Position numbers and translations under genes: made by a program
Shown: positions 408 to 11,735 of the stretch, piece after piece
Layout: every line of letters begins with the position of its first letter
How positions within the stretch are numbered: the first letter of the stretch is position 1
Notes under the pieces: generated by a model
The model's input: only the letters and a program-made list of their open reading frames with translations
The model's database searches: none
Told to the model about the DNA's origin: nothing
IMG/VR virus record: IMGVR_UViG_3300048672_000470
Location: 1-21,222 of that record
Direction: 5' to 3' (one strand)
DNA from: a virus
DNA: 21,222 nucleotides

Positions 408-1409
408 ATGAAAATACCTGAATTATCAATTATAATACCTGTTCATAATGAAGGGGCAGAGTTTGTTAAGAAAACAATAGACTCCATAAAATCTACTATT
501 GATGTTAGTTATGAGATAATAGTTATTGATGACTGCTCCGATAAACATCTTCTGGGTGTTGATATAGGAAACCATGTATATTGTAAAGTTCAGAATGAGG
601 GTGTTGGTTCTGCCTTTGATACAGGCATGAAATATGCTAAGTCTGAAAACATCTTCCTGATGGGTTGCGATATACGGTTCATTAAGAACGGCTGGGCCTC
701 AAAGATGGTTAATGAGATTGAGAAACATCCTAAGTCTTTAATATGTACTTCGGTTGTTCATCTATCGGCTGGTACTCCGGCACTAACATTTGATGTTAGT
801 CGTCAGAACTTTGTTTATAATGGTGCCACTATACTGATGGCTTACGGTAAAGAAGATTGGAACATCCTGAAAGCTGAATGGCTGCCCCGTGAGAGCCGTA
901 TGGTTAAACGTGGTCCCGAGCTGGCAATGAAGATGCTAAAGCCTTACGGAGTAAATTATTCCGATACAGAATGTTATGAGGTGCCCTGTATTCTTGGTGC
1001 TGCCTACGGGGTTAAGAAATCCTGGTATAACTATATTGATGGCTTTTGGGGACATAAGAAATGGGGAAGCCTTGAACCTTACATATCTTTAAAGTCGTGG
1101 ATGTTTGGAGGCAACTGCTTAACTGCTCCTCATATCGAAACGGCTCATATCTTCAATGAAACACAGGGAAGGCACGGCACGGGCTTTGAGAACCTTGCTT
1201 ATAACTCTATGCTTATAGCATGGCTCCTGTTTGATAAAGAGGATAGGATTTGGCTCATACGACACTTGCAGGAGCATGAATGGGTTGTTAAGGCAAAGGA
1301 GATGATTGCCTGTAAACTTCCTCAGATACTTGGCAAACATAAAGAATACAAGTTAAAAACAGAGATGACAGTTCAGGAGTTTGTTAAACGATTTAATATA
1401 CCTTTCTAA
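408..1409 (+). CDS. GT-A glycosyltransferase resembling polypeptide GalNAc-transferases (GT2/GT27-like)
   Basis: This 333-residue enzyme has an N-terminal GT-A nucleotide-sugar domain: IIIPVHNEG at 8-16, the acidic pair in VIDDCSD at 39-45, and the metal-binding DxD-like GCDIRF at 86-91. Residues 191-248 hold a second block. It includes a conserved glycine/aromatic loop, FWGHKKWGSLEPYISLKSW (213-231), then GG and a late histidine (ETAHIF, 244-249). It resembles the acceptor half of polypeptide GalNAc-transferases and related chondroitin-type enzymes (WGxENxELSxRxWxxGG). There is no C-terminal lectin domain and no membrane anchor. It should transfer a sugar from a nucleotide donor in the cytoplasm. 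Donor and acceptor cannot be read from sequence. It is the first gene of the cassette, and its stop shares a base with the next ATG (TAATG). Family is secure; the GalNAc-transferase likeness is from motif shape only. Confidence 0.85.
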   Translation: MKIPELSIIIPVHNEGAEFVKKTIDSIKSTIDVSYEIIVIDDCSDKHLLGVDIGNHVYCKVQNEGVGSAFDTGMKYAKSENIFLMGCDIRFIKNGWASKMVNEIEKHPKSLICTSVVHLSAGTPALTFDVSRQNFVYNGATILMAYGKEDWNILKAEWLPRESRMVKRGPELAMKMLKPYGVNYSDTECYEVPCILGAAYGVKKSWYNYIDGFWGHKKWGSLEPYISLKSWMFGGNCLTAPHIETAHIFNETQGRHGTGFENLAYNSMLIAWLLFDKEDRIWLIRHLQEHEWVVKAKEMIACKLPQILGKHKEYKLKTEMTVQEFVKRFNIPF

Positions 1410-1636
1410 TGGCAAAACCAATTTTAACAATAGGAATACCTAACCATATAAAGATGAATGTGGATAAGGTTATGAATCTCAGAAAAACACTAAAGAGAGA
1501 AATTAAGGATTATTATATATTGATTTATACAGACGATATTGAAAAAATAGAGATAAAAATACTTTCATTAGAATTAATTGATGAGAAAGAAGCCAAAAAA
1601 CTTGAGGATAAAATAATAAAATATTATGAGAATTAA
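1409..1636 (+). CDS. Small charged hypothetical protein within the glycan cassette
   Basis: This encodes 75 residues from an ATG that shares one base with the preceding stop. I do not recognise the family. The start, PILTIGIPNH, resembles the first beta strand of a GT-A enzyme, but the nucleotide-sugar motifs do not follow. The rest is lysine, glutamate and isoleucine rich, with an amphipathic helical end (EKEAKKLEDKIIKYYEN). No membrane segment or cysteines are seen. The coding sequence looks more A-rich than its neighbours. It overlaps the next gene by 11 bases, so translation is probably coupled. It could be a small phage protein unrelated to glycans or a shortened remnant of a larger enzyme; nothing in the sequence decides between them. 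Confidence 0.55.
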   Translation: MAKPILTIGIPNHIKMNVDKVMNLRKTLKREIKDYYILIYTDDIEKIEIKILSLELIDEKEAKKLEDKIIKYYEN

Positions 1637-2399
1637 ACAATTCTACTGCACTTTCGGCAGGCACTTTGCTGAGGCAATGGCAAGGAAATACGACTTAATA
1701 CTCAACAATGTAAGCGTTAAGATGGATGAACCATTATTTATGTTTGGATGCTACACTCAGAAAGACATCTGGCACGCAATACATCATCAATCAGGAGGGC
1801 AACTAACAGTTATATGCTGGGCTGGTAGTGATGCAATAAACCTAAAACATATGTCAGGAGTATTTAATCATTTCCCTAAGATTAAACATATTGCACAAAG
1901 CAAATGGATAGCTTCTGATTTAGGTATGCAGGCACTTCCATGTTATAGGATCCCGGTAACTGCTTACGATCACTCTTATATTAAACCAGAGCCGTTGGGT
2001 GATTCAATATATATGTATAAGCCTGATTCTAAAGTTTATAATGGAGGTATCTATCATAAAATAAAAGAAGCACTACCGGGGTATAATTTCATTGAGGTTA
2101 ATTTTGGCGACCATACCCGTGAGGAGATGATTGAGATTTACAAAAAATGTTTTATCGGGTTAAGATTTACAGAGCATGACGGACTTTCTGAGACTGTTTG
2201 TGAAATGGGAATGATGGGACGTAGGGTTATTCATAATGGAGATACCCCAAGCTGTATTACTTATACTGATATTAATAGTGTTATTAATGCCATTGGGAAT
2301 GAATGGAAATACCCTTTAGATGCTTTTGAGATTGCAGAGGCAACAAAAGATTATTTAAACATTGGTACCGACTTCTTAAATACAAAATATTATGAGTAA
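1626..2399 (+). CDS. GT-B glycosyltransferase, GT4-like
   Basis: This 257-residue protein is shorter than typical GT4 enzymes (about 350-400 residues). The C-terminal half carries the GT4 donor-binding signature HDGLSETVCEMGMMGRRVI (184-202), with the paired glutamates E189 and E193. This is the equivalent of EGLPxxxLEAMACGxPVI in larger family members. The N-terminal acceptor half is compact and includes WAGSD (65-69), like the W-GTD loop of GT4 proteins. There is no signal peptide or transmembrane helix, so it should act in the cytoplasm on a nucleotide-sugar donor. It starts inside the 3' end of the 75-aa gene and its own 3' end overlaps the microprotein at 2392. The fold assignment is good; the sugar is unknown. 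Confidence 0.75.
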   Translation: MRIKQFYCTFGRHFAEAMARKYDLILNNVSVKMDEPLFMFGCYTQKDIWHAIHHQSGGQLTVICWAGSDAINLKHMSGVFNHFPKIKHIAQSKWIASDLGMQALPCYRIPVTAYDHSYIKPEPLGDSIYMYKPDSKVYNGGIYHKIKEALPGYNFIEVNFGDHTREEMIEIYKKCFIGLRFTEHDGLSETVCEMGMMGRRVIHNGDTPSCITYTDINSVINAIGNEWKYPLDAFEIAEATKDYLNIGTDFLNTKYYE

Positions 2400-2472
2400 A
2401 GGAGGACTGATTAGGTTTTTAGCAGTTTTATTTTGTTTGGTTTGTTGGTACCTAATAATTAAAATATGGTAA
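2392..2472 (+). CDS. 26-aa single-span membrane microprotein in the glycan cassette
   Basis: A short frame fills the only gap in the cassette. The ATG at 2392 overlaps the stop of the GT4-like gene, and its TAA at 2470-2472 overlaps the start of the next glycosyltransferase by 7 bases. After a short polar start (MSKGG) and one arginine, residues 9-23 are almost entirely hydrophobic (FLAVLFCLVCWYLII), with a lysine near the end. One membrane span is the obvious prediction. If translated, it could anchor a glycosyltransferase complex at the inner membrane or simply keep ribosomes running between genes. No homology is recognised, and a 26-codon frame can occur by chance; the double overlap and the hydrophobicity are the support. 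Confidence 0.45.
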   Translation: MSKGGLIRFLAVLFCLVCWYLIIKIW

Positions 2473-3188
2473 GCGTAGCACTCCCGGTATGGAAAAGTAA
2501 AGAAATTGCATGGCTTTGTATGGAGAGCCTATGCAGGATGATTAAGCCTGAAAGCGATTGGGAGTTGATTGTATTTGAGGAAGAACATAATGAGCAACTT
2601 GGATATGATTTCTTTAACTCTTATTTAGGTAGACTTAAAAAGGCTGGATGTATATATATTGAATATTTAACAACATTTGATAAATATCCTTTATCTCAAA
2701 AGTGGATAGATATAGCACTTGCATCCTCCCTTGACAGTGAGGCTTTTTGTTTATGTGCTACGGATAATTATTACAGTCCTTATTTGCTTGTTGATGCTGA
2801 AAGGGATATTAAGAAGGCCGACTGGATAATTACTACCAAAGGTTATTTCTATGACTTTAACTATGATAAGGTTCTGAGGTTTGACTGGTATTCTTCAGTA
2901 GGGCTCCAGATGATTGCCAATACAAAACTGGTAAGGAAATTCCCTATGGAGGTTGTCAATAAAGGAGTTGATATGTGGTTTGCTCGTAATATAGGAAATA
3001 ATAGTTTAATTAATAACGATCACTGGAACGAGGTGCTCTGCACTAACGGCATGAATAATATATCAACAGAGAGAGCGGAGTTTTTTAAGGAGCCATTGCC
3101 TCCATATTACGAAACGAATAAGACATTGGAAGATATTGTACCTTTGGATATTGTTAAAAAGTTAAAGCTATGCCAAAAATTACTGTAA
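2466..3188 (+). CDS. GT2-type (GT-A) glycosyltransferase, divergent
   Basis: This 240-residue protein begins MVSVALPVWKSKEIAWLCM, the first beta strand and helix of a GT-A fold (usually VSVxxPxYN). The usual IDDGS loop is replaced by VFEEEHNE (36-43). The expected DxD position reads CATDNYYSP (97-105), so the metal motif is reduced to a single aspartate. Later aromatic and charged motifs (FDWYSSVGLQMI near 139-150) fit the acceptor side. It has no membrane segment. It is the third glycosyltransferase of the cassette, and its 3' end overlaps the next gene by 19 bases. The motif changes leave open whether it is active or a diverged or accessory subunit. The alternative is a GT-A-like pseudoenzyme. 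Confidence 0.65.
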   Translation: MVSVALPVWKSKEIAWLCMESLCRMIKPESDWELIVFEEEHNEQLGYDFFNSYLGRLKKAGCIYIEYLTTFDKYPLSQKWIDIALASSLDSEAFCLCATDNYYSPYLLVDAERDIKKADWIITTKGYFYDFNYDKVLRFDWYSSVGLQMIANTKLVRKFPMEVVNKGVDMWFARNIGNNSLINNDHWNEVLCTNGMNNISTERAEFFKEPLPPYYETNKTLEDIVPLDIVKKLKLCQKLL

Positions 3189-3868
3189 TTATTTCAGCAT
3201 GGAAAGATAAGGGTTGGTTAGATGAGGCTATCCTTTCCGCAAAGAACCAGACATTTGATGACTATGAGATAATACTTTCATCAGACGGCAATCCTCATTT
3301 GGTCAGTTTTGCCGTAAAGTATAATATCGGTTTTGTATGTGCCAATAAAAACTGTCACTCATCAGCTTTAAATAATGCTGTCAGTCATGCCAGGGGCGAA
3401 TGGATAAAAGAATGTCACGATGATGACTTACTGACTCCAAACTGTCTGGCTGATTTATGGAATAACAGGGAGGGAGCAGATTTACTTTATGCTAATGCTT
3501 ATAGTTTCAGGGAAAATAATAAGGATGAATTTTATATCTATAAGCCTCCCCGTGAGATTACATTAAGTGACTTGCTGCCTATCATCAAATGTCCTGTTCA
3601 TGCAGCTACCATCTTTTATAAGAGAGAGGTATTTCTAAAGGTAGGTGGTTTTGATCCCAACTTGAAACACGCTGAGGAATATGAGTTTTATCTTAATCTT
3701 CTTACACATGGTTATAAGTTTAAATACGTGGATAGTAATGTTGCATGGTATCGTTATAATAGCCAGCAAGACACTCATATACTTAATACTTGCCGTGATG
3801 AGATAAGGGAATATATACAGGGTAAGTTTGATAAATATGTATTGGAGTTAAAAGAAATAAAATGGTAA
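3170..3868 (+). CDS. GT2 family glycosyltransferase
   Basis: This 232-residue protein has canonical family 2 motifs: ITVIISAWKDKGWLDEAI (4-21) for the first strand and helix, ILSSDG (35-40) for the uracil/ribose loop, and HDDD (83-86) for the metal-binding DxD. GGFDPNLKHAEEYEFYLNL (159-177) corresponds to the ED/EY-rich catalytic-base region found in small bacterial GT2 enzymes such as WcaA/WbbL-like proteins. There is no membrane helix. The protein is short and single-domain, as expected for an enzyme that adds one sugar to an oligosaccharide in the cytoplasm. Its ATG lies 19 bases inside the upstream gene and its 3' end overlaps the fucosyltransferase by 7 bases. Confidence 0.88.
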   Translation: MPKITVIISAWKDKGWLDEAILSAKNQTFDDYEIILSSDGNPHLVSFAVKYNIGFVCANKNCHSSALNNAVSHARGEWIKECHDDDLLTPNCLADLWNNREGADLLYANAYSFRENNKDEFYIYKPPREITLSDLLPIIKCPVHAATIFYKREVFLKVGGFDPNLKHAEEYEFYLNLLTHGYKFKYVDSNVAWYRYNSQQDTHILNTCRDEIREYIQGKFDKYVLELKEIKW

Positions 3869-4674
3869 GTGTGAATCTTAAAGGCGGGCTTGGAAATATG
3901 CTCTTTCAGATTGCCTTCATTGAAGATATGGCACGCAGGGGAGGTTTTGAAGTACGCTATCCTGATATTGATTATGTGTTTCAGACATTATTGAAGTCCG
4001 GCCATTCGCAAAACTGTTATGATTATCTTAAAATATTTAAGAATTTCGACTGGCTAAAGAACCAGGATAAGCCAATGCCAAACAGGATATGCCATATTCC
4101 TTATAAGTATGTTAATCTTACCCCTACTGACAATGTTATTTATGATGGTTACTTTCAGAGTGAGAGGTATTTTGACAGGAAGGAGACACTGAAACTCTTT
4201 GAGCCTGCTGATTTTATTAAAGAGAAGTTGCCTTTTAGGACCATGCCGGGTGTTACTTCGGTTCATGTGCGGAGGGGTGACTTTCTTAATCCGCAAGAGA
4301 TAAATATTAATCTCGGAATGGATTACTACTGGAAGGCTTATGATATGATTATGGATGCGATGAGGGACAATACAGATTCTTATTTATTTTTTAAGAGGGT
4401 ATTTACATTTAAGGTTTTCAGTGATGATTATGTCTGGTGCAAAGAAAGGTTTGATGGTTTTAGTTTTTATGACAAAGAACCGATAGATTATATAGAACTA
4501 TTTTGGATGTCAATGTGTGAAAATAATATAATAGCAAACTCCTCATTCAGTTGGTGGGGTGCCTACCTTAATCAGAATCCTGATAAGAAAGTCATTGCTC
4601 CGGCAGCGTGGTACAAACCCGGATCGGGGTTAAGTGCGGAAGATGTTTATTGTAAAAATATGATAATAATTTAA
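3862..4674 (+). CDS. Alpha-1,2-fucosyltransferase, GT11 family
   Basis: This 270-residue protein carries all the GT11 landmarks in order. GGLGNMLFQ (8-16) is at the N-terminus. HVRRGDF (135-141) is the GDP-fucose-binding motif HxRRxD shared with alpha-1,6-fucosyltransferases and protein O-fucosyltransferases. FSDD is at 186-189, and NSSFSWWGAYL (226-236) is near the C-terminus. Length is close to bacterial homologues (about 280-300). The enzyme should move L-fucose from GDP-fucose onto a terminal sugar, typically galactose, in alpha-1,2 linkage. No GDP-fucose synthesis gene is in the window, so the phage would rely on the host's pool. Many gut Bacteroidota make or salvage GDP-fucose. It overlaps the upstream gene by 7 bases and is followed one base later by a methyltransferase. 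This is the best-supported enzyme of the cassette. Confidence 0.93.
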   Translation: MVSVNLKGGLGNMLFQIAFIEDMARRGGFEVRYPDIDYVFQTLLKSGHSQNCYDYLKIFKNFDWLKNQDKPMPNRICHIPYKYVNLTPTDNVIYDGYFQSERYFDRKETLKLFEPADFIKEKLPFRTMPGVTSVHVRRGDFLNPQEININLGMDYYWKAYDMIMDAMRDNTDSYLFFKRVFTFKVFSDDYVWCKERFDGFSFYDKEPIDYIELFWMSMCENNIIANSSFSWWGAYLNQNPDKKVIAPAAWYKPGSGLSAEDVYCKNMIII

Positions 4675-4675
4675 T

Positions 4676-5398
4676 ATGTTTGACTTCGGACACTACCAGA
4701 ACCTTTGTCTTGCTTTTGCTTCAGATGATAAGCTATTTGCTAATTTCCGCAATGAGAAAATATTCAGGGATATGTATGAGCACGTTACCTATGAACAGGG
4801 ATTAGTTTATATTGACGAGGCAAAGAAATCCTTCAGGGAAGTATTTGAGCACATAGAGCTACTGGCTAATGACAGAGTGGGTAATCCTATAAAGGAATAC
4901 TATGAGGAGCTTGGCTTTGAGGTAGCTCCTACTACACTGAGGTATTTAAAAGTATTGGCTGATCTTATTAAATTATTTGGTTCGTTGGACGGCATGGATA
5001 TTGTTGAGATAGGGGCAGGTTACGGAGGTCAGTGTAGGATGATTCACCAGATGTTCACTCCAAAGAGTTACACTATCATTGACATACCTGAAGCCGCAAA
5101 ACTTATTGAGAGATACCTTCGTGAGTTTGCTGTCTATCCAAAGGCTCAGTTTAAGCATTATGATTTATTTATTTCAAATTATGCTTTTACTGAGGTATCA
5201 CGGGTATACCAGGATATGTATAAAGAGAAGTTTATAGATAAATCAGACAGGGGCTATATAACTTGTAACTTCTACACTCCTCCGAGTGATATGCTTACGT
5301 TTAATGATATTTTGAAACTTAAAGATAACTACCAGGTGTTTGATGAGATACCAAAGACGGCACCGGATAACTTTATTTATGTATGGCATCACAAGTAG
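4676..5398 (+). CDS. Putative sugar O-methyltransferase
   Basis: This 240-residue protein has a helical N-terminal region of about 105 residues, followed by a Rossmann-type S-adenosylmethionine site: DIVEIGAGYGGQC (108-120, motif I, GxGxG-like) and YTIIDIPEA (131-139, the acidic end of strand 2). The helical cap plus this E-IGAGYGGQ site matches the 'putative sugar O-methyltransferase' family often found in capsule and O-antigen clusters. It probably methylates a hydroxyl of one of the sugars added by the neighbouring transferases. It starts one base after the fucosyltransferase stop and overlaps the next methyltransferase by 16 bases. The fold is convincing; a sugar as substrate is inferred from family and neighbours. 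Confidence 0.75.
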   Translation: MFDFGHYQNLCLAFASDDKLFANFRNEKIFRDMYEHVTYEQGLVYIDEAKKSFREVFEHIELLANDRVGNPIKEYYEELGFEVAPTTLRYLKVLADLIKLFGSLDGMDIVEIGAGYGGQCRMIHQMFTPKSYTIIDIPEAAKLIERYLREFAVYPKAQFKHYDLFISNYAFTEVSRVYQDMYKEKFIDKSDRGYITCNFYTPPSDMLTFNDILKLKDNYQVFDEIPKTAPDNFIYVWHHK

Positions 5399-5889
5399 GT
5401 CAGGATTTATGGGTGCTTTCTTTAATCAAGAAAGGTATCTTTTTAGACATCGGTTGCAGGGGGCCGGAAGAATTAAATAACACTTTTCTCTTGGAGCAGA
5501 ACGGATGGGACGGGGTATCTATTGATATAGTAGATTACTCAAAGGAGTGGAAGGAAAGGAAAACTACGTTTATATGTGCCGATGCTCTTACTTTTGATTA
5601 CCGGATGAATCTTACTAAGTTTCCGTTTCTTATTGACTATCTTAGTTTGGATATTGAAGGTGATGGCGACAGGTTTAAAGCATTATTAAAAGTTATTTCG
5701 GATGGCTATGAGTTTAAGGTGATAACTATTGAACATGATTCATACAGGGTTAATGAGGAGCTGGAGAAGATTCCGCAAAGGGCTTTATTGAAGTCGCTTG
5801 GTTATGTGCTGGCTTTCCCTGATGTCAAAGACGATGGTAATGAGTACGAAGATTGGTGGATCAATCCAAAGTATATATGCCTCACATAA
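5383..5889 (+). CDS. FkbM-type SAM-dependent methyltransferase
   Basis: This 168-residue protein is a compact methyltransferase. It opens with SQVGQD (3-8), as FkbM proteins do, followed by FLDIGCRGPEELNNT (20-34, motif I), GWDGVSIDI (41-49, end of strand 2) and LSLDIEGDGD (87-96, the post-strand 4 'DIEG' motif). FkbM-family enzymes O-methylate small molecules and sugars, and are common in surface-glycan loci. Two different methyltransferases at the end of a glycosyltransferase series suggest capping of the finished glycan. The ATG is 16 bases inside the preceding gene, and the HNH endonuclease start lies 13 bases before its end, so the glycan cassette and packaging module are translationally linked here. 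Confidence 0.8.
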   Translation: MASQVGQDLWVLSLIKKGIFLDIGCRGPEELNNTFLLEQNGWDGVSIDIVDYSKEWKERKTTFICADALTFDYRMNLTKFPFLIDYLSLDIEGDGDRFKALLKVISDGYEFKVITIEHDSYRVNEELEKIPQRALLKSLGYVLAFPDVKDDGNEYEDWWINPKYICLT

Positions 5890-6188
5890 AACTTTTGAAG
5901 CGCAAACGTGATACAGTACCTACTCAGAGAAAGGGCAAGTATCAGGAAGTTTATCAGGATAAGCGATGGTTGAAACTTCGCAATCATAAAAGGCGTGCTA
6001 ACCCTCTTTGTGAGAGGTGCGAGAAAAAAGGCAAGGTAACTCCGGCAAAAGAAGTGCATCATAAAATACCATTTGATACAGGAAAAACTCCTGAAGAAGT
6101 TGAGGTATTGGCTTTTGGCTGGGATAACCTGATGAGTGTTTGCGAACCATGCCATGAGGAATTACACAAAGAATTAAAAAATGTTTAA
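5877..6188 (+). CDS. HNH endonuclease of the packaging module
   Basis: This encodes 103 residues from ATG 5877. An in-frame TTG at 5853 would add eight residues, but the ATG with its 13-base overlap is preferred. The N-terminus is very basic (KLLKRKRD, KRWLKLRNHKRR). The HNH core follows: CERC (45-48), EVHHKIP (59-65), WDNL (82-85) and CEPCHEELH (89-97). Together these give two zinc-binding CxxC pairs and the His/Asn catalytic residues. Phage HNH proteins beside the terminase genes cut DNA together with the terminase during genome packaging in HK97-like phages. Position immediately before the small terminase fits that role. It is not a homing endonuclease inserted in a gene, as it disrupts nothing. 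Confidence 0.9.
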   Translation: MPHIKLLKRKRDTVPTQRKGKYQEVYQDKRWLKLRNHKRRANPLCERCEKKGKVTPAKEVHHKIPFDTGKTPEEVEVLAFGWDNLMSVCEPCHEELHKELKNV

Positions 6189-6259
6189 AAAAATATATGC
6201 AAATATGTATATATGTCAATTATTAGTTATAAATTTGTATTTGTTAAAATTCTTATATC
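6189..6259 (+). other. AT-rich intergenic region before the small terminase, possible cos or promoter region
   Basis: This 71-base region is nearly all A and T, with an imperfect dyad of alternating ATAT around 6193-6216 and a -7-like promoter element at 6230-6237. It is the only sizeable non-coding gap in the packaging module and lies between the HNH and small terminase genes, where many cos-type phages carry terminase-binding or cos sequences. No cos core can be identified from sequence alone. Confidence 0.3.
6230..6237 (+). promoter_or_regulatory. Candidate Bacteroidota-type promoter for the packaging/structural operon
   Basis: TAAATTTG matches the -7 consensus TAnnTTTG, sits 23 bases before the small terminase ATG, and lies inside the identical 11-mer TTATAAATTTG also found at 312-322. 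No good TTTG -33 element is seen at the expected spacing. The placement in the one AT-rich gap upstream of terS is the strongest support. Confidence 0.4.
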
Positions 6260-6667
6260 ATGGTAAGGAAAAATGATAGTTCTTCTTTCCTTTGTCCTGA
6301 AACGCAGGTGTTCAAAGATAACCTTATTGCGCTATTGAAATCAGAAAGCATCCTCACAAATCTTGACCAAGACACTTTAAATCTGGCTGTTAACGCTTAC
6401 GATGTTTACACAGAAGCCACAAGGATATTAAGAAAAGATGGGTTGGTAGTTGTGAGCAAGACAGGAAACAAGTCAACGCATCCGGCATATAAGATGCAGA
6501 TTGAAAACGGCAAACTACTTGCTAACTTGCTCGATCAGTTTGGGATGAATCCCCATGCACGCAAGGAACTGGCCAAACCGAAAGAGAAATCGAAAGAAGA
6601 AAGCGACATAGCTAAGTTTTTAAAGGACTCGAAAAAAAAAGTAAATGCTGAAGTACAAAATAATTAG
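6260..6667 (+). CDS. terS: Terminase small subunit, P27 family
   Basis: This encodes 135 residues. The region from 68 to 104 holds the P27-type small terminase signature: GNKSTHPAYKM (69-79), then a helix with LLANLLDQFGMNPHARKEL (86-104). It is preceded by a helical segment with DVYTEATRIL (48-57). The basic tail (KSKEESDIAKFLKDSKKK) is typical. The protein recognises phage DNA and recruits the large subunit to start packaging. It follows the AT-rich gap with a candidate promoter and overlaps the next small gene by 23 bases. A run of nine A (6632-6640) near the 3' end encodes lysines; the gene downstream is closed off by a stop right before its own ATG, so no frameshift fusion is implied. 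Confidence 0.88.
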   Translation: MVRKNDSSSFLCPETQVFKDNLIALLKSESILTNLDQDTLNLAVNAYDVYTEATRILRKDGLVVVSKTGNKSTHPAYKMQIENGKLLANLLDQFGMNPHARKELAKPKEKSKEESDIAKFLKDSKKKVNAEVQNN

Positions 6668-6917
6668 CAAATCATCAGGTGATACACTGATGCAGATTAC
6701 TTGTGACGACTTCGAAGCGAGTAAGAAGCGACAGTTGTTTCTTTTGGCACACCGTATGCACCCTGAGCCATTGATGCAGACACATTTATTTAAGCATGGC
6801 ATCAGTGATTTTGATTTCATACCTGAGACAATAATTGAAAAAGCAATAATAGAACCACAAAAAGAAACCCGCAAAGAAACGTTTAAAAGTAGCCAGTTGA
6901 GGAATCGTAAGAGTTAA
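6645..6917 (+). CDS. Hypothetical protein between terminase subunits
   Basis: This encodes 90 residues from an ATG immediately after an in-frame TAA (TAAATG). It overlaps the small terminase gene by 23 bases, and its stop (6915-6917) directly abuts the TTG of the large terminase. I do not recognise the family. The N-terminal half could form a small alpha/beta domain (YKIISKSSGDTLMQITCDD, residues 4-22). The C-terminal third is charged and likely disordered (EPQKETRKETFKSSQLRNRKS). No zinc, membrane or catalytic motifs stand out. Given its position it may be a packaging accessory, but this is only an inference from context. Confidence 0.6.
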   Translation: MLKYKIISKSSGDTLMQITCDDFEASKKRQLFLLAHRMHPEPLMQTHLFKHGISDFDFIPETIIEKAIIEPQKETRKETFKSSQLRNRKS

Positions 6918-8540
6918 TTGGACAGTCTAAAGAAGTACATATCAGACATCGAATCGGGAGCCATCCCTAGTTGTTCTCATGTCAAAAATGCTGTTAAAAG
7001 ATTTAAGAAAGATTTAAAGGATTCACGTTTTGATTTCCGTGAGGATAGGGTTGAAACGGTGCTTAAGTTTTTTTCTTCACTAAAACATTTTGAAGGTCGT
7101 CACTCGGGAAAACATTTTGATTTACTACCCTGGCAGGTATTCATAGTAAGCAACTTGTATGGTTTTTACTGGGCTGATACTAACCTTCGCAGGTTCCAGA
7201 CAGCATACCTTGAACTTGGCCGTAAAAATGGGAAGACGGCTTTTGCTTCAGGACTTGGATTGTATCACCTGATGGCAGACGGTGAGGATGCTGCACAGGT
7301 TCTTATAGCTGCCAACTCAAAAGAACAGGCTCATATCTGTTATAACATGACTTCTAAGTTCTGCAAGGGCTTTGATCCTTCGGGGGAGTATCTTCGCAGG
7401 TTCCGTTCAGACATCTTATTCGATGATACAAATTCTATGCTTAAAGTTCTGGCTTCTGACTCTGATAAGTTGGACGGCTTTAACTGTTCATTTGGTATTG
7501 TGGATGAGTACCACTCTGCACCCGACTCGAGGGTAAGGGATGTAATACGTTCATCAATGGCTATGCGGGAGAACCCTTTACTGATGACTATTACAACAGC
7601 AGGATTCAATAAGGCACTTCCATGTTATGCACTAAGGACGGTTTGTTCGGAGGTTATTGCAGGGGTGAAAGAGGATGATTCTCTTTTCTCTGTTATCTAT
7701 ACACTGGATGAGGAAGACGACTGGCAGGATCCAAAGAATTGGGTTAAGTCTAATCCTAATCTTGGTGTCACTGTGAACTCATCGTTTATTGAAAAACAAG
7801 TCATACAGGCACGTAACAATCCTTCGGATGAGGTAGGTATAAAAACCAAGAACTTAAATATCTGGTGTGACTCATCAGAGACATGGATTCCGGATGAATA
7901 TATCCTGAAGGCTACGGGCAAAGTGGAGTTTTCTGCTTTCCAAAGTGAGGAGTGTTTCATCGGTGTTGACCTGGGAAGCACTCAGGATATGACAGCCGTC
8001 AGTTATGAGTTTTTCAAAGAGGGTAAGAAATATTTTATCCTCAAATATTATCTTCCTTTCGAAAGCCTGAAGACAGCAGCAAACAGGGAGATTTATAAGC
8101 AATGGCATCGCATGGGATGGCTGACTATCACTCCAGGGAATGTCACGGACTATGATTATATAACTAAAGATATAATTGAAGCATCTAAGATTTGTTCTAT
8201 ATTTAAAATATACTACGATAAATGGAATTCCCAACAGTGGGCCATAAATTGCACGGAGATAGGGCTTCCATTGGAACCATTCAGCCAGTCAATAGGAAAC
8301 TTTAATGCTCCGACAAAGGAACTTGAGAGGTCAATACTTTGCGGCGATGCTATAATTGACGACAATCCTATAACGAGGTTTTGTTTTCGTAACGTGGTTA
8401 TGCGTTCTGACTATAACGGCAATATGAAGCCTGATAAATCTAAAGCAACTCAAAAGATTGATGGAGTCATTGCCATGATACAATCCGATGCTGCGTGTGT
8501 GATAAGAAATGAAAATGTTTACAATGGTAATATATACTGA
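6918..8540 (+). CDS. terL: Terminase large subunit, HK97-like (Terminase_1 type)
   Basis: This 540-residue packaging motor has both expected domains. The ATPase contains Walker A ELGRKNGKT (99-107) and Walker B with catalytic Glu, FGIVDEYH (192-199), followed by a coupling motif TITTAG (224-229). The C-terminal RNase H-like nuclease has FIGVDLGSTQDMTA (347-360) and a late acidic residue in KIDGVIAM (D515). The start is TTG at 6918, directly after the preceding TAA. No ATG occurs before codon 119, which lies beyond Walker A, so a non-ATG start is forced. The stop overlaps the portal start as TGATG. The enzyme cuts concatemers and pumps DNA into the prohead through the portal. Confidence 0.95.
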   Translation: MDSLKKYISDIESGAIPSCSHVKNAVKRFKKDLKDSRFDFREDRVETVLKFFSSLKHFEGRHSGKHFDLLPWQVFIVSNLYGFYWADTNLRRFQTAYLELGRKNGKTAFASGLGLYHLMADGEDAAQVLIAANSKEQAHICYNMTSKFCKGFDPSGEYLRRFRSDILFDDTNSMLKVLASDSDKLDGFNCSFGIVDEYHSAPDSRVRDVIRSSMAMRENPLLMTITTAGFNKALPCYALRTVCSEVIAGVKEDDSLFSVIYTLDEEDDWQDPKNWVKSNPNLGVTVNSSFIEKQVIQARNNPSDEVGIKTKNLNIWCDSSETWIPDEYILKATGKVEFSAFQSEECFIGVDLGSTQDMTAVSYEFFKEGKKYFILKYYLPFESLKTAANREIYKQWHRMGWLTITPGNVTDYDYITKDIIEASKICSIFKIYYDKWNSQQWAINCTEIGLPLEPFSQSIGNFNAPTKELERSILCGDAIIDDNPITRFCFRNVVMRSDYNGNMKPDKSKATQKIDGVIAMIQSDAACVIRNENVYNGNIY

Positions 8541-9811
8541 TGAAAATATTAGGATATGAAGTAGGCTTCTCAAAGCTGAACAAAAAAGAACCCGAAAAAC
8601 GTAGCATGATGATTGGCCCTACGGATGCACTGGGGCTTCCCTGGGGAGGTACGACTACTTCATTAACCGCTATGCAGTCCATGAGGTTGAGTGCCGTTTA
8701 CAGGTGTGTTGATGTCAAGAGCAGCGATATAGGAGCAATGCCCTGGGATGTATTTGTTTACAGGGGTAACATGGAATGGGTTAAGGATGACAGTCATTTC
8801 TCATATTCAATACTTAATTCGCAGCCTAACCCTTCATGTTCTGCTTTCACATTCTGGAAAACATTTGTTGCAAAGGTTGAACTTGAGGGCAATGGCTATG
8901 CTCATATCTTCAGGGACGAGTTCGGTAATCCTATCGGTTTGGAGCTTTGTACCGGAGTAGTGGTTATGTATATCCGTGATGATTTGAGTACATATTATAT
9001 TCATACTCATCCTTATACAAGCAGGGAGCAGGTTATTGACGGTGAGGATATGATTCATGTTCTTAACTTCTCTTACGATGGGTTGATGGGTGTTTCTACG
9101 CTTAACCATGCTATGAACATCACAGGACTGGCCGCTTCATCTGACGGACAGGCAAAGGGGTTCTTCTCATCAGGTGCGAATCTTTCAGGGATAATCTCAG
9201 TACCGGGTAAGATAGACCCGACTAAAGCTACTGCACTTAAAACAGCTTGGGGAGAGGCATTTGCACTATCATCAACTACGGGAGTGGCCGGAGGTGTTGC
9301 AGTTATGGAGGGTGGCGCAGAGTTTAAGCCTGTTCAAGTAAATCCAAAAGATGCACAGATGCTCGAGACGAGGGCTTTTAACGTAATAGATATTTGCAGG
9401 TTCTTTGGTGTTCATCCATCGAAGGCATTCGATATGTCATCGGCTGCCTACGCTTCGGCAGAGAGTTACCAGTTAGCTTATATAACAGACACCATGACAC
9501 CCCTTGCAAGGAAGATAGATAATGAGGTTAACAGGAAACTTTACAGGCCGTCACAGAGAAAAAAGACTAAAGCACTTTTAAGGGTAAGGGCTATGCAGTC
9601 GGCTGATATTGATTCACTTGGTAACTATTATTCCCGAATGTTTCAACTTGGAGTTTACAGTCCGAATGATATTTGCAGGGAGATGAATCTTCCACTTGAT
9701 GCTAAAGGAGATAAGAAGTATGTGCAGGTTAATTTGGCAGAATTAGGTAAAGAACCAACACCAACACAAAATAAAAATACAAATGTAGTAAGCGATGGAA
9801 AAGGAAATTAG
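8540..9811 (+). CDS. Portal protein, HK97 family
   Basis: This 423-residue protein matches the HK97/lambda-like portal family in length and pattern. Near the N-terminus is SAVYRCVDVKSSDIGAMPW (51-69), the usual 'Y-Cv-i-a-ia-lP' helix. A lipid-free wing domain with GNGYAHI and G-FG-P segments follows, then the region with the conserved RAFNVIDICRFFGVHP (280-295) before the crown. It forms the dodecameric ring at the capsid vertex through which DNA enters, and to which the terminase and connectors dock. It starts one base into the terminase stop and overlaps the protease by 17 bases. The C-terminal tail is short and polar. Confidence 0.93.
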   Translation: MKILGYEVGFSKLNKKEPEKRSMMIGPTDALGLPWGGTTTSLTAMQSMRLSAVYRCVDVKSSDIGAMPWDVFVYRGNMEWVKDDSHFSYSILNSQPNPSCSAFTFWKTFVAKVELEGNGYAHIFRDEFGNPIGLELCTGVVVMYIRDDLSTYYIHTHPYTSREQVIDGEDMIHVLNFSYDGLMGVSTLNHAMNITGLAASSDGQAKGFFSSGANLSGIISVPGKIDPTKATALKTAWGEAFALSSTTGVAGGVAVMEGGAEFKPVQVNPKDAQMLETRAFNVIDICRFFGVHPSKAFDMSSAAYASAESYQLAYITDTMTPLARKIDNEVNRKLYRPSQRKKTKALLRVRAMQSADIDSLGNYYSRMFQLGVYSPNDICREMNLPLDAKGDKKYVQVNLAELGKEPTPTQNKNTNVVSDGKGN

Positions 9812-10481
9812 AACATTTGAAATAGTTGATTGCGATTTAAGAGCAACAAGACGAGGGAGAACTATCGAAGGACTTGGAATTGTCTATAATAAGCTATCTC
9901 AAGACTTGGGTGGTTTTCGTGAGATTATTAAACCAGAGGCAATAAACGGAGTATTGGAAAATTCCGATATTCTTGTCCTTATGAATCACGATGAATCCAG
10001 AGGGGTACTTGCAAGGTCAACTAATGGACAGGGATCGATGGAGGCACAAAATACTAATACGGGTGTTAAGTATGTCTTTGAGGCTCCCGACACATCATTG
10101 GGTGAAGAAGCGTTGAGTGGTGTTCGCAGGGGCGACATCAGGGCTTCGTCCTTTGCTTTTACTATTGCCGAAGATGGCGATAAATGGGAGAAGCAACAAG
10201 ATGAAACATATTTAAGAACGATAACTAAATTTGATAAGATTTTTGACTTCTCGCTTGTCTATCGTCCTGCTTATCAGGACACCAGTGTAGCGGTGAGGAG
10301 TCTTGTTGATGTACGAACAAGTGAAGCTGAAAAAGCAACAGCCGAAGCAAAGAAAAAAATAGCAGACCTTGAAGAAGAGCTTAGTCGTAAGACTCCCTCT
10401 GAAACAACCGATGTTGAAGCGGACCCTGTTGACTTAACAGAGTATTTTAAAGAAATTGAAGAGAAAATTAAAAAGATGTAA
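9795..10481 (+). CDS. Prohead protease, HK97 family (peptidase U35)
   Basis: In this 228-residue protein the protease domain covers about 1-165: GLGIVYN (26-32), LMNHDESRGVLAR (62-74) with the catalytic His65, and DIRASSFAF (114-122) with the likely catalytic serine at 119. FSLVYRPAY follows (about 154-162). The C-terminal 60 residues form a charged coiled coil (EAEKATAEAKKKIADLEEEL) and an acidic tail ending in KEIEEKIKKM. This may act as a scaffold-like or targeting segment inside the prohead. The enzyme cleaves the N-terminal delta domain of the capsid protein during maturation. It overlaps the portal gene and stops three bases before the capsid gene. Confidence 0.9.
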   Translation: MEKEIRTFEIVDCDLRATRRGRTIEGLGIVYNKLSQDLGGFREIIKPEAINGVLENSDILVLMNHDESRGVLARSTNGQGSMEAQNTNTGVKYVFEAPDTSLGEEALSGVRRGDIRASSFAFTIAEDGDKWEKQQDETYLRTITKFDKIFDFSLVYRPAYQDTSVAVRSLVDVRTSEAEKATAEAKKKIADLEEELSRKTPSETTDVEADPVDLTEYFKEIEEKIKKM

Positions 10482-10484
10482 AAA

Positions 10485-11735
10485 ATGAAAGAATTGACAT
10501 TACTCGAATTGAGAGATAAAAGAGGAGGCTTCGTTGAAGATAACGAGAGAATCCTTGCAACGATCAAAAAGGAAAACAGGGAGATGAAACCTGAAGAAAA
10601 AACCTATTTTGATGAGAACGTGAAAAATGCTGCTGAGCTTGAGCTTCAGATTCTTGAGAAAGAAGAGCAGCGCAAGATGCCGGCTAAGATGGTTGTTGGT
10701 GAAAACCGTGAGGAAGGAAAGCCATTCAGCCTGTTTACTGCTATCAACAATGAGATTGATAACAAACCCTTGGATGCTCCTTCGGCTGCAATGTCAGAAC
10801 AGGGACGGAAAGAGTTTCAGAGGTCAGGGCTTACCACAAAAGGTAAGTTAGTCCTCCCGATGGAATCGGAGATTGTAAAACGTACTGCAATAGTAGCAGG
10901 AGGGACAACTACCGGGGGTTACATTGTAGCAACGGATAAAAAAGCTGTATTGCCTCCGCTTACCAATTATATGGTACTGACTCAGGCAGGTGCAACTTAC
11001 CTGACAGGACTTGTAGGAAGCGTATCTGTACCGACCTATTCAGGGACAACCGTAGCATGGAAAGAGGAAACTGTTAGTGCTGCTGATGGAGCCGGGACAT
11101 GGGGCAAAGTTGATTTGGCTCCAAAACGTCTTACTGCTTACCTTGATGTATCTAAGCAATTTTTAGCTCAGGACTCCGTAGGTGCAGAACAGATGCTTTA
11201 TGAGAATCTTGCAAAAGCAATAGCAACCAAACTTGAAGCTACCATACTTGGTACAGGTGAAGGAAGTGCAGTATCTACACCTGCCGGTTTGTTCTGGAGT
11301 CAATATACAGCAGCCGCAACGACTCTTTCATGGAGTTCTATCGTAGCACTTGAGACAACTATTGATTCTGCAAACAACTTACAGCAGAACCTTGCATATA
11401 TCACAAGTGCCGCAGGACGTGGAGCAGCTAAGACAACACTTCGTACAGCTACTTATGGCGAACAGATGATAATGGAAGGAAACACCATTAATGGTTATCC
11501 TGTTTATGTTACTAACGGATGTGCTAAGACTACTGACTTCTCAACAACTACCGGATTTGGATTCATCTTCGGTAACTGGGCTGACCTTCTGATAGGACAG
11601 TGGGCTGGTTATGATCTTACCATTGACCCGTATTCACAGGCTGTATATGCTAATGTAAGACTTGTCGTGAACTGCTATTTTGATGCAGCCGCAGCAAGGA
11701 CTACATCTTCATTTGCACCTAAACACATGGCATAA
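10485..11735 (+). CDS. Major capsid protein, HK97 fold
   Basis: This 416-residue protein has an N-terminal helical, highly charged delta domain of about 60-110 residues (for example EEKTYFDENVKNAAELELQI, 33-52) that serves as built-in scaffold and is probably cut off by the upstream protease. The shell domain follows, with a start block around 131-160 containing RTAIVAGGTTTGGYIVAT and PPLTNYMVLTQ. A late WADLLIGQWAGYDLTIDP segment (residues 364-381) is typical of the P domain and A domain of HK97-type capsids. It is preceded only by TAAAAA and has no Shine-Dalgarno motif, as expected for a highly expressed Bacteroidota gene. Its stop shares a base with the next ATG (TAATG). Confidence 0.93.
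   Translation: MKELTLLELRDKRGGFVEDNERILATIKKENREMKPEEKTYFDENVKNAAELELQILEKEEQRKMPAKMVVGENREEGKPFSLFTAINNEIDNKPLDAPSAAMSEQGRKEFQRSGLTTKGKLVLPMESEIVKRTAIVAGGTTTGGYIVATDKKAVLPPLTNYMVLTQAGATYLTGLVGSVSVPTYSGTTVAWKEETVSAADGAGTWGKVDLAPKRLTAYLDVSKQFLAQDSVGAEQMLYENLAKAIATKLEATILGTGEGSAVSTPAGLFWSQYTAAATTLSWSSIVALETTIDSANNLQQNLAYITSAAGRGAAKTTLRTATYGEQMIMEGNTINGYPVYVTNGCAKTTDFSTTTGFGFIFGNWADLLIGQWAGYDLTIDPYSQAVYANVRLVVNCYFDAAAARTTSSFAPKHMA

Follow-up and report, generated by a model that had tools for sequence, protein, structure and literature searches.

Evidence for glycosylation of virion proteins exists for only a few phages, and the difficult part of any prediction is the enzyme that attaches the first sugar. 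In mycobacteriophages of cluster F1 (Che8 and relatives), glycans occur on capsid and tail-tube subunits (Freeman et al. 2023, as summarised in PMC12619734 and PMC11256854), and these summaries link them to phage-encoded glycosyltransferases; in Maravista, a relative of this cluster, the glycosyltransferase genes lie near the genome 3′ end (PMC11256854). In PBCV-1 (A064R, A061L and A111/114R), mostly soluble glycosyltransferases build the capsid glycan, which is capped in order by two methyltransferase activities (PMC9614988). Here, a viral fragment of 21,222 bases (IMG/VR record IMGVR_UViG_3300048672_000470, positions 1 to 21,222; the whole stretch is hereafter called the window) was analysed, in which genes for four glycosyltransferases, one GT11 fucosyltransferase and two methyltransferase-like proteins form a seven-enzyme cassette on the + strand at 408–5889. 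Its glycosyltransferases are phage-encoded, as in cluster F1, but the cassette lies beside terS and includes GT11 and methyltransferases. It would resemble PBCV-1 in combining virus-encoded soluble glycosyltransferases with two methylations, whereas PBCV-1 is a eukaryotic virus with an N-linked glycan and multidomain enzymes. The cassette probably encodes a soluble pathway that glycosylates at least one virion protein in the host cytoplasm.

The first gene of the cassette is as follows.

408 to 1409, + strand: GT2a, a GT2-fold, GT27-like glycosyltransferase, proposed as the initiating enzyme (PF00535 and profile comparisons)

GT2a matched PF00535 at 67.6 bits, over the cut-off. When its profile was compared with solved structures, GT27 polypeptide N-acetylgalactosamine (GalNAc)-transferases ranked first and aligned over both catalytic halves (E 8e-10 for GalNAc-T10); GalNAc-transferases filled the first seven places among the structure chains, and the best non-GT27 chain reached only 1e-3. 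With a profile of the 11-member GT2a family, the top matches were again GT27 structures (1.8e-38 to 3e-26), followed by a bacterial chondroitin synthase (5e-23). The profile of GT2b, another enzyme of the cassette used as a control, retrieved no GT27 structure at E 0.01. The distal metal-ligand histidine (H247) and the W219–G235 segment (W-G..E...W..GG) are present in GT2a; their correspondence to GT27 residues is presumed from the alignment and general knowledge of the family. A scan with a three-sequence alignment recovered GT2a relatives in unrelated phages, and the DXH motif of GT27 occurs as DAH, DSH or DGH in relatives L096, L114, L118, L120, L122 and L132. Several of the phage relatives thus keep DXH and, as described below, have threonine-rich neighbours. 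L096, a GT2-LanC-like fusion from a Prevotella metagenome-assembled genome, has a true DXH motif (DAH), matched GalNAc-T2 at 5.7e-14 and is homologous to GT2a (hhalign 99.2%), thereby linking GT2a to GT27.

At the phage loci, the open reading frames (ORFs) of the GT2a family recurred among virion genes. They lie between capsid and neck in L114, between neck and tape measure in L116, and between tape measure and tail-assembly genes in L120, all confirmed with PHROG on both sides. Portal and capsid genes precede the member in L113 and baseplate genes that in L122 (both PHROG-confirmed), and the member in L118 follows a protein with weak structural matches; in L115 and L132, no structural neighbour was confirmed among the neighbours tested. 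This recurrence in unrelated phages, together with the threonine-rich phage proteins that several members adjoin, bears on the idea that the target of the cassette is a host protein or a small peptide product, for instance to block a defence, rather than the virion. The LanC-like fusion of L096 would fit such a role, as it suggests a peptide natural product, whose glycosylation by this fusion is possible, but the phage contexts make it very unlikely for the cassette. The fusion gene of L096 (985–2634) adjoins an ORF that recalls C39 peptidases.

A second line of evidence came from threonine (Thr)-rich proteins, recorded wherever an ORF in the fetched stretch contained at least nine Thr in 15 residues. 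Such tracts were found in five of eight GT27-like lineages and in one of 126 control loci (Fisher p 1e-6, or 7e-5 to 5e-3 at other thresholds), values to be read only as a guide, as the measure was picked with the tracts already in view and the controls (relatives of the terminase large subunit TerL, generic GT2 loci and GT11 loci) are partly near-duplicates. In L132, the gene of a (TTTQ[AV]P)n protein (6721–7485) lies directly upstream of the DGH-type GT27-like gene and overlaps it by four bases; its product carries TTTQVPTTTQAPTTT repeats followed by (TP)n and resembles the proline-, threonine- and serine-rich (PTS) domain of mucins. The adjacent upstream protein in L113, the closest GT2a relative outside the window lineage, ends in T10. 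A long poly-Thr tract lies two genes upstream in L122, two small proteins with C-terminal poly-Thr directly follow the capsid gene in L114, and a tract lies five genes downstream in L115; the adjacent upstream protein in L120 has a milder Thr-rich C-terminus, under the threshold. All four Thr codons are used in the L114 and L122 tracts, and this mixture argues against a simple DNA repeat. It is possible, as a tentative extension, that tailed phages possess a mucin-type O-glycosylation of their own, in which GT27-like enzymes encoded among virion genes attach the first sugar to Thr-rich virion proteins in the bacterial cytoplasm and the cassette of the window represents an elaborated form that builds a fucosylated, O-methylated chain. 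As a separate observation, the head-tail adaptor carries an inserted Thr-rich stretch (e.g., GTVTTAGTTTLTGDGTTFT) in L004 (11372–11881), L005 (5460–5966) and L002 (15012–15319); that of the window is shorter and seems to have no such insertion.

Several points weigh against virion decoration by a GT27-type route. Residues 86–88 of GT2a read GCD where GT27 has DXH, and GT2a is therefore filed as GT27-like rather than as GT27. It is a soluble phage protein of 333 amino acids in which only GT2-type and NTP-transferase matches were found in Pfam, with no lectin domain; a C-terminal ricin-type lectin domain is a feature of most animal GT27 members. AlphaFold models were too poor for use (predicted local distance difference test scores of 41 for GT2a and 47 for GTx, a further cassette enzyme). 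The Thr-tract threshold was picked after the tracts had been seen, and the lineages number only eight. The Thr-rich proteins had no PHROG match, leaving their virion membership unproven, and the capsid protein has no cassette-specific serine (Ser)/Thr extension. Since the window, L002 and L146 contain no Thr-rich tract (maximum six Thr in 15 residues), the Thr-rich neighbours support the function of the family more than the identity of the acceptor in the window lineage. Generic phage GT2 genes also stood among structural genes in about three of seven loci (ORF lists read by eye), so that position among virion genes supports a virion role without proving it. Finally, transcription of the cassette may start from a promoter of its own.

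The preliminary description of this DNA had favoured cytoplasmic decoration of virion proteins over editing of the host surface, pointing to a lack of export machinery. No flippase, polymerase, polyprenyl-phosphate transferase or GtrA-like protein was indeed seen in the window or in the 34.7-kb record of a related phage (L146), in which genes for replication, putative lysis, head and tail accompany the cassette. L146 contained no multi-pass glycan-export candidate beyond small phage proteins, and the membrane-bound trio of Gtr-type systems (GtrA, GtrB and a type-specific Gtr) was found neither in the cassette nor in L146. These absences bear on host-surface remodelling, in which lipid-linked capsule or O-antigen precursors would be edited in the cytoplasm and other phages excluded or progeny release eased. 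All the enzyme types of the cassette occur in bacterial surface-glycan loci, GT2a weakly matched the GtrB-like PHROG 841 (1.5e-5, residues 5–89, in the generic GT2 part), and no acceptor protein was identified in the window; Bacteroidota, moreover, have fucosylated surface glycans. Besides the missing export genes, however, the solved structures closest to GT2a belong to enzymes that glycosylate proteins, and no tyrosine integrase was found in 14 records including L146, which argues against lysogenic conversion but not against modification in the lytic phase. Host-surface remodelling is accordingly regarded as unlikely. Virion decoration, which we still infer, was strengthened by the GT27-likeness of GT2a, by the relatives among virion genes and their Thr-rich neighbours, by a GTx relative between capsid and adaptor genes (L082, below), and by the lack of a tyrosine integrase or multi-pass export candidate in L146; the argument from a late-gene position, also part of the earlier proposal, calls for caution.

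The other features of the cassette and the packaging genes that follow it are listed below.

1409 to 1636, + strand: 75-amino-acid ORF with no assigned function; L002 and L146 have no such ORF between their GT2a and GTB
1626 to 2399, + strand: GTB, putative GT-B type glycosyltransferase of an orphan family (motif spotted by eye)
2392 to 2472, + strand: hydrophobic 26-amino-acid mini-ORF overlapping both neighbours; at this place, a short DegT-like aminotransferase is encoded in L002 and L146
2466 to 3188, + strand: GTx, GT2-type glycosyltransferase (PF00535 via L082)
3170 to 3868, + strand: GT2b, GT2 glycosyltransferase (PF00535, 57.3 bits)
3862 to 4674, + strand: GT11 family (putative alpha-1,2-) fucosyltransferase (PF01531)
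4676 to 5398, + strand: MT1, sugar O-methyltransferase, TIGR04371 (NanM-like; NCBIfam)
5383 to 5889, + strand: MT2, divergent, short FkbM-like methyltransferase (via its L002 counterpart)
5877 to 6188, + strand: packaging-module HNH endonuclease (start codon chosen with L002 as reference)
6260 to 6667, + strand: terminase small subunit
6918 to 8540, + strand: terminase large subunit

All seven enzyme genes were recovered where the preliminary description had placed them, and its statement that the enzymes lack a clear membrane helix agrees with the absence of transmembrane-like segments from the cassette enzymes (highest 19-residue Kyte-Doolittle mean, 1.25). It had also described the cassette end as coupled to the HNH gene: the 3′ end overlaps the HNH-terS-terL module, most likely by 13 bases between MT2 and an HNH start predicted at the ATG at 5877. 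The description of overlaps of 1–19 bases or a one-base gap throughout holds only if the two small ORFs at 1409–1636 and 2392–2472, absent from the earlier list, are counted; with these left out, gaps of 216 bases (GT2a–GTB) and 66 bases (GTB–GTx) appear. The start of the 75-amino-acid ORF (ILTIGIPNH) recalls a GT2 N-terminus. The identities of the downstream HNH, terS, terL, portal, protease, capsid, connector and tail genes were confirmed with PHROGs. Judging from TerL relatives (50–60% identity) in Parabacteroides, Proteiniphilum, Prevotella and Phocaeicola genomes, the host would belong to Bacteroidota.

Support for the enzyme families was uneven: GT2a, GT2b, GT11 and MT1 matched directly over curated cut-offs, and the others were assigned indirectly. 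GT11 scored 54.3 bits against PF01531 (cut-off 23.9) and contains the motifs HVRRGD, of the HxRRxD form, and NSSFSWWG; MT1 scored 73.9 bits against TIGR04371 (cut-off 44). GTx had no direct family match and none to GT2b by hhalign, but it aligned with the part of an L082 protein from residue 447 onwards (33% identity over 239 columns, E 5e-34), a part that includes a PF00535 match (residues 449–562, 1e-11), and is therefore taken as a GT2-type enzyme. The L082 gene lies between capsid and head-tail adaptor; its product (8708–10951) is a 747-amino-acid fusion of rhamnosyltransferase-like and GT2-type domains, and its end overlaps the adaptor gene. MT2 had no direct match, including to PF05050 in Pfam, but its positional counterpart in L002 matches PF05050 at 9.9e-14 and aligns with MT2, which suggests an FkbM-like enzyme. 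GTB found no match in Pfam, PHROG, NCBIfam or PDB, nor to another phage glycosyltransferase by hhalign; a EHDGLSETVCEMGMMG segment spotted by eye, recalling the GT4 EX7E motif, hints at the GT-B type. Scans of viral contigs with GT11 alone found nothing, and those with MT1 or GTB returned only cassette phages already known.

For this pathway, we infer what the enzymes do, which protein accepts the glycan, which sugars are used, in which order the steps run and what the phage gains. GT2a would most likely attach the first sugar, by analogy an N-acetylhexosamine, straight to Ser/Thr residues in a structural protein, as characterised GT27 members glycosylate Ser/Thr of polypeptides directly. GTB, GTx and GT2b might then extend the chain from host nucleotide sugars, GT11 could add fucose from guanosine diphosphate (GDP)-fucose, and MT1 and MT2 would add O-methyl groups to sugars, probably close to the outer end. 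The product could shield the particle or alter its binding to glycans, mucus or receptors.

A different acceptor, the phage genome itself, was also considered. A more distant relative, L032, encodes a GT2-like protein between terL and portal (L033 gave a match in the corresponding interval). A glycosyltransferase of L032 weakly matched a TET-associated glycosyltransferase (0.0012), and modification of DNA with a variety of glycans by phage glycosyltransferases has been described (Pyle et al. 2024, as cited in PMC12619734), both of which would fit a sugar chain built on modified bases. Against this stand the polypeptide transferases closest in structure to GT2a, the absence of any thymidylate-synthase-type enzyme from 18 records including the window, L146 apart, and the absence of such a gene from the ORFs of L146 (read by eye and scanned in part with Pfam). 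A TET/JBP search gave no match in 18 records (L146 apart), a result that shows little, as its controls were silent too; the records searched are, moreover, fragments. DNA hypermodification thus appears highly improbable.

With the TerL of the window as query, 79 viral loci were retrieved. The preliminary description had proposed a search for the gene set beside terS in other Bacteroidota phages, and the cassette was found upstream of HNH-terS-terL, in the same order, in L002 (TerL 91%), L004 (74%) and L145/L146 (69%; a pair of records whose phages closely resemble each other). The L004 and L145 records begin inside the cassette, so their GT2a lies outside view. L146 has no MT1, and these relatives carry genes absent from the window, namely one for a short DegT-like aminotransferase and one for an additional methyltransferase; L002 and L004 have yet another methyltransferase-like gene. 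In L006, L008, L010 and L012 (TerL 57–60%), in which sequence upstream of HNH is present, no PF00535 match was found. The ratio of nonsynonymous to synonymous substitution rates was 0.08–0.15 for GT2a, GTB, GTx and GT11 versus 0.04–0.07 for TerL and portal, with synonymous sites near saturation; no ratio could be computed for GT2b and MT1. The cassette is therefore maintained rather than a chance assembly, as its order recurs in three other phages and four of its genes are under purifying selection. GTB was conserved at 66–70% in L002 and L145/L146. GT2a was conserved at 67–81%, whereas GT2b diverged fast (46–49% in relatives), and L002 and L004 have another FkbM form in place of MT2. Such a contrast between a conserved GT2a and variable GT2b and MT2 would be expected if the first step were fixed and the outer chain variable.

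The short DegT-like aminotransferase (about 200 amino acids, roughly half the usual length) was located in L002 (3849–4499), L004 (1–552), L146 (6030–6632) and L102 (6747–7337), and its relatives share the fetched stretch with GT11 in many other viral loci. In L224, from the same phage as L146, an ORF at 4309–5193 has near-perfect hexapeptide repeats (left-handed beta-helix).

Two candidate regulatory features precede the cassette.

313 to 322, + strand: promoter-like TATAAATTTG, matching the Bacteroidota −7 consensus; this copy is conserved in L002
346 to 391, + strand: hairpin with a T-run, its end 16 bases upstream of the start codon of GT2a; a comparable hairpin is present in L002

The Bacteroidota −7 consensus is TAnnTTTG. 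A second exact copy of TATAAATTTG lies at 6228–6237, before terS; with one mismatch allowed, four copies were found against 5.1 expected, no more than by chance, and a cassette-specific promoter is suggestive only. The hairpin, with fold z-scores of only −1.6 and −1.1, is a candidate terminator or leader element, and no element was found in Rfam. In L146, the cassette stands where the replication-region genes meet the packaging module. Given the promoter-like site, the hairpin and this junction, late expression of the cassette, as assumed earlier from its position, is presumptive only.

Phage GT11 genes are not new, since cyanophages S-SSM7 and ACG-2014f and megaphage LR756502 carry them among other glycosyltransferases. 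S-SSM7 and LR756502 share with the window a sugar O-methyltransferase alongside GT11, and LR756502 shares with L002, L004 and L146 the short DegT-like aminotransferase. Unlike the window, the cyanophage clusters have their own nucleotide-sugar enzymes, the cyanophage and LR756502 genomes are much larger, and tblastn found no GT2a, GTB or GTx relatives in the three clusters. The same search with these enzymes, run against 50,697 phage records at 1e-5, gave no match, and DXH-type relatives had no full-length match in GenBank phages. Matches of the GT2a profile in 297 Bacteroidota genomes (E 1e-8) covered the N-terminal half only and were set aside as generic GT2. A literature search covering few subscription journals found no paper on GT27-like phage enzymes. 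The apparently new elements are the GT27-like phage family itself, the way it recurs among virion genes and the Thr-rich proteins in its neighbourhood.

The GT27-like genes and their Thr-rich neighbours offer directly testable enzyme–acceptor pairs, and the family could serve as a marker for glycosylated phages in metagenomes. If the proposed function is true, it would extend to bacterial viruses a protein-glycosylation family best known from animals.

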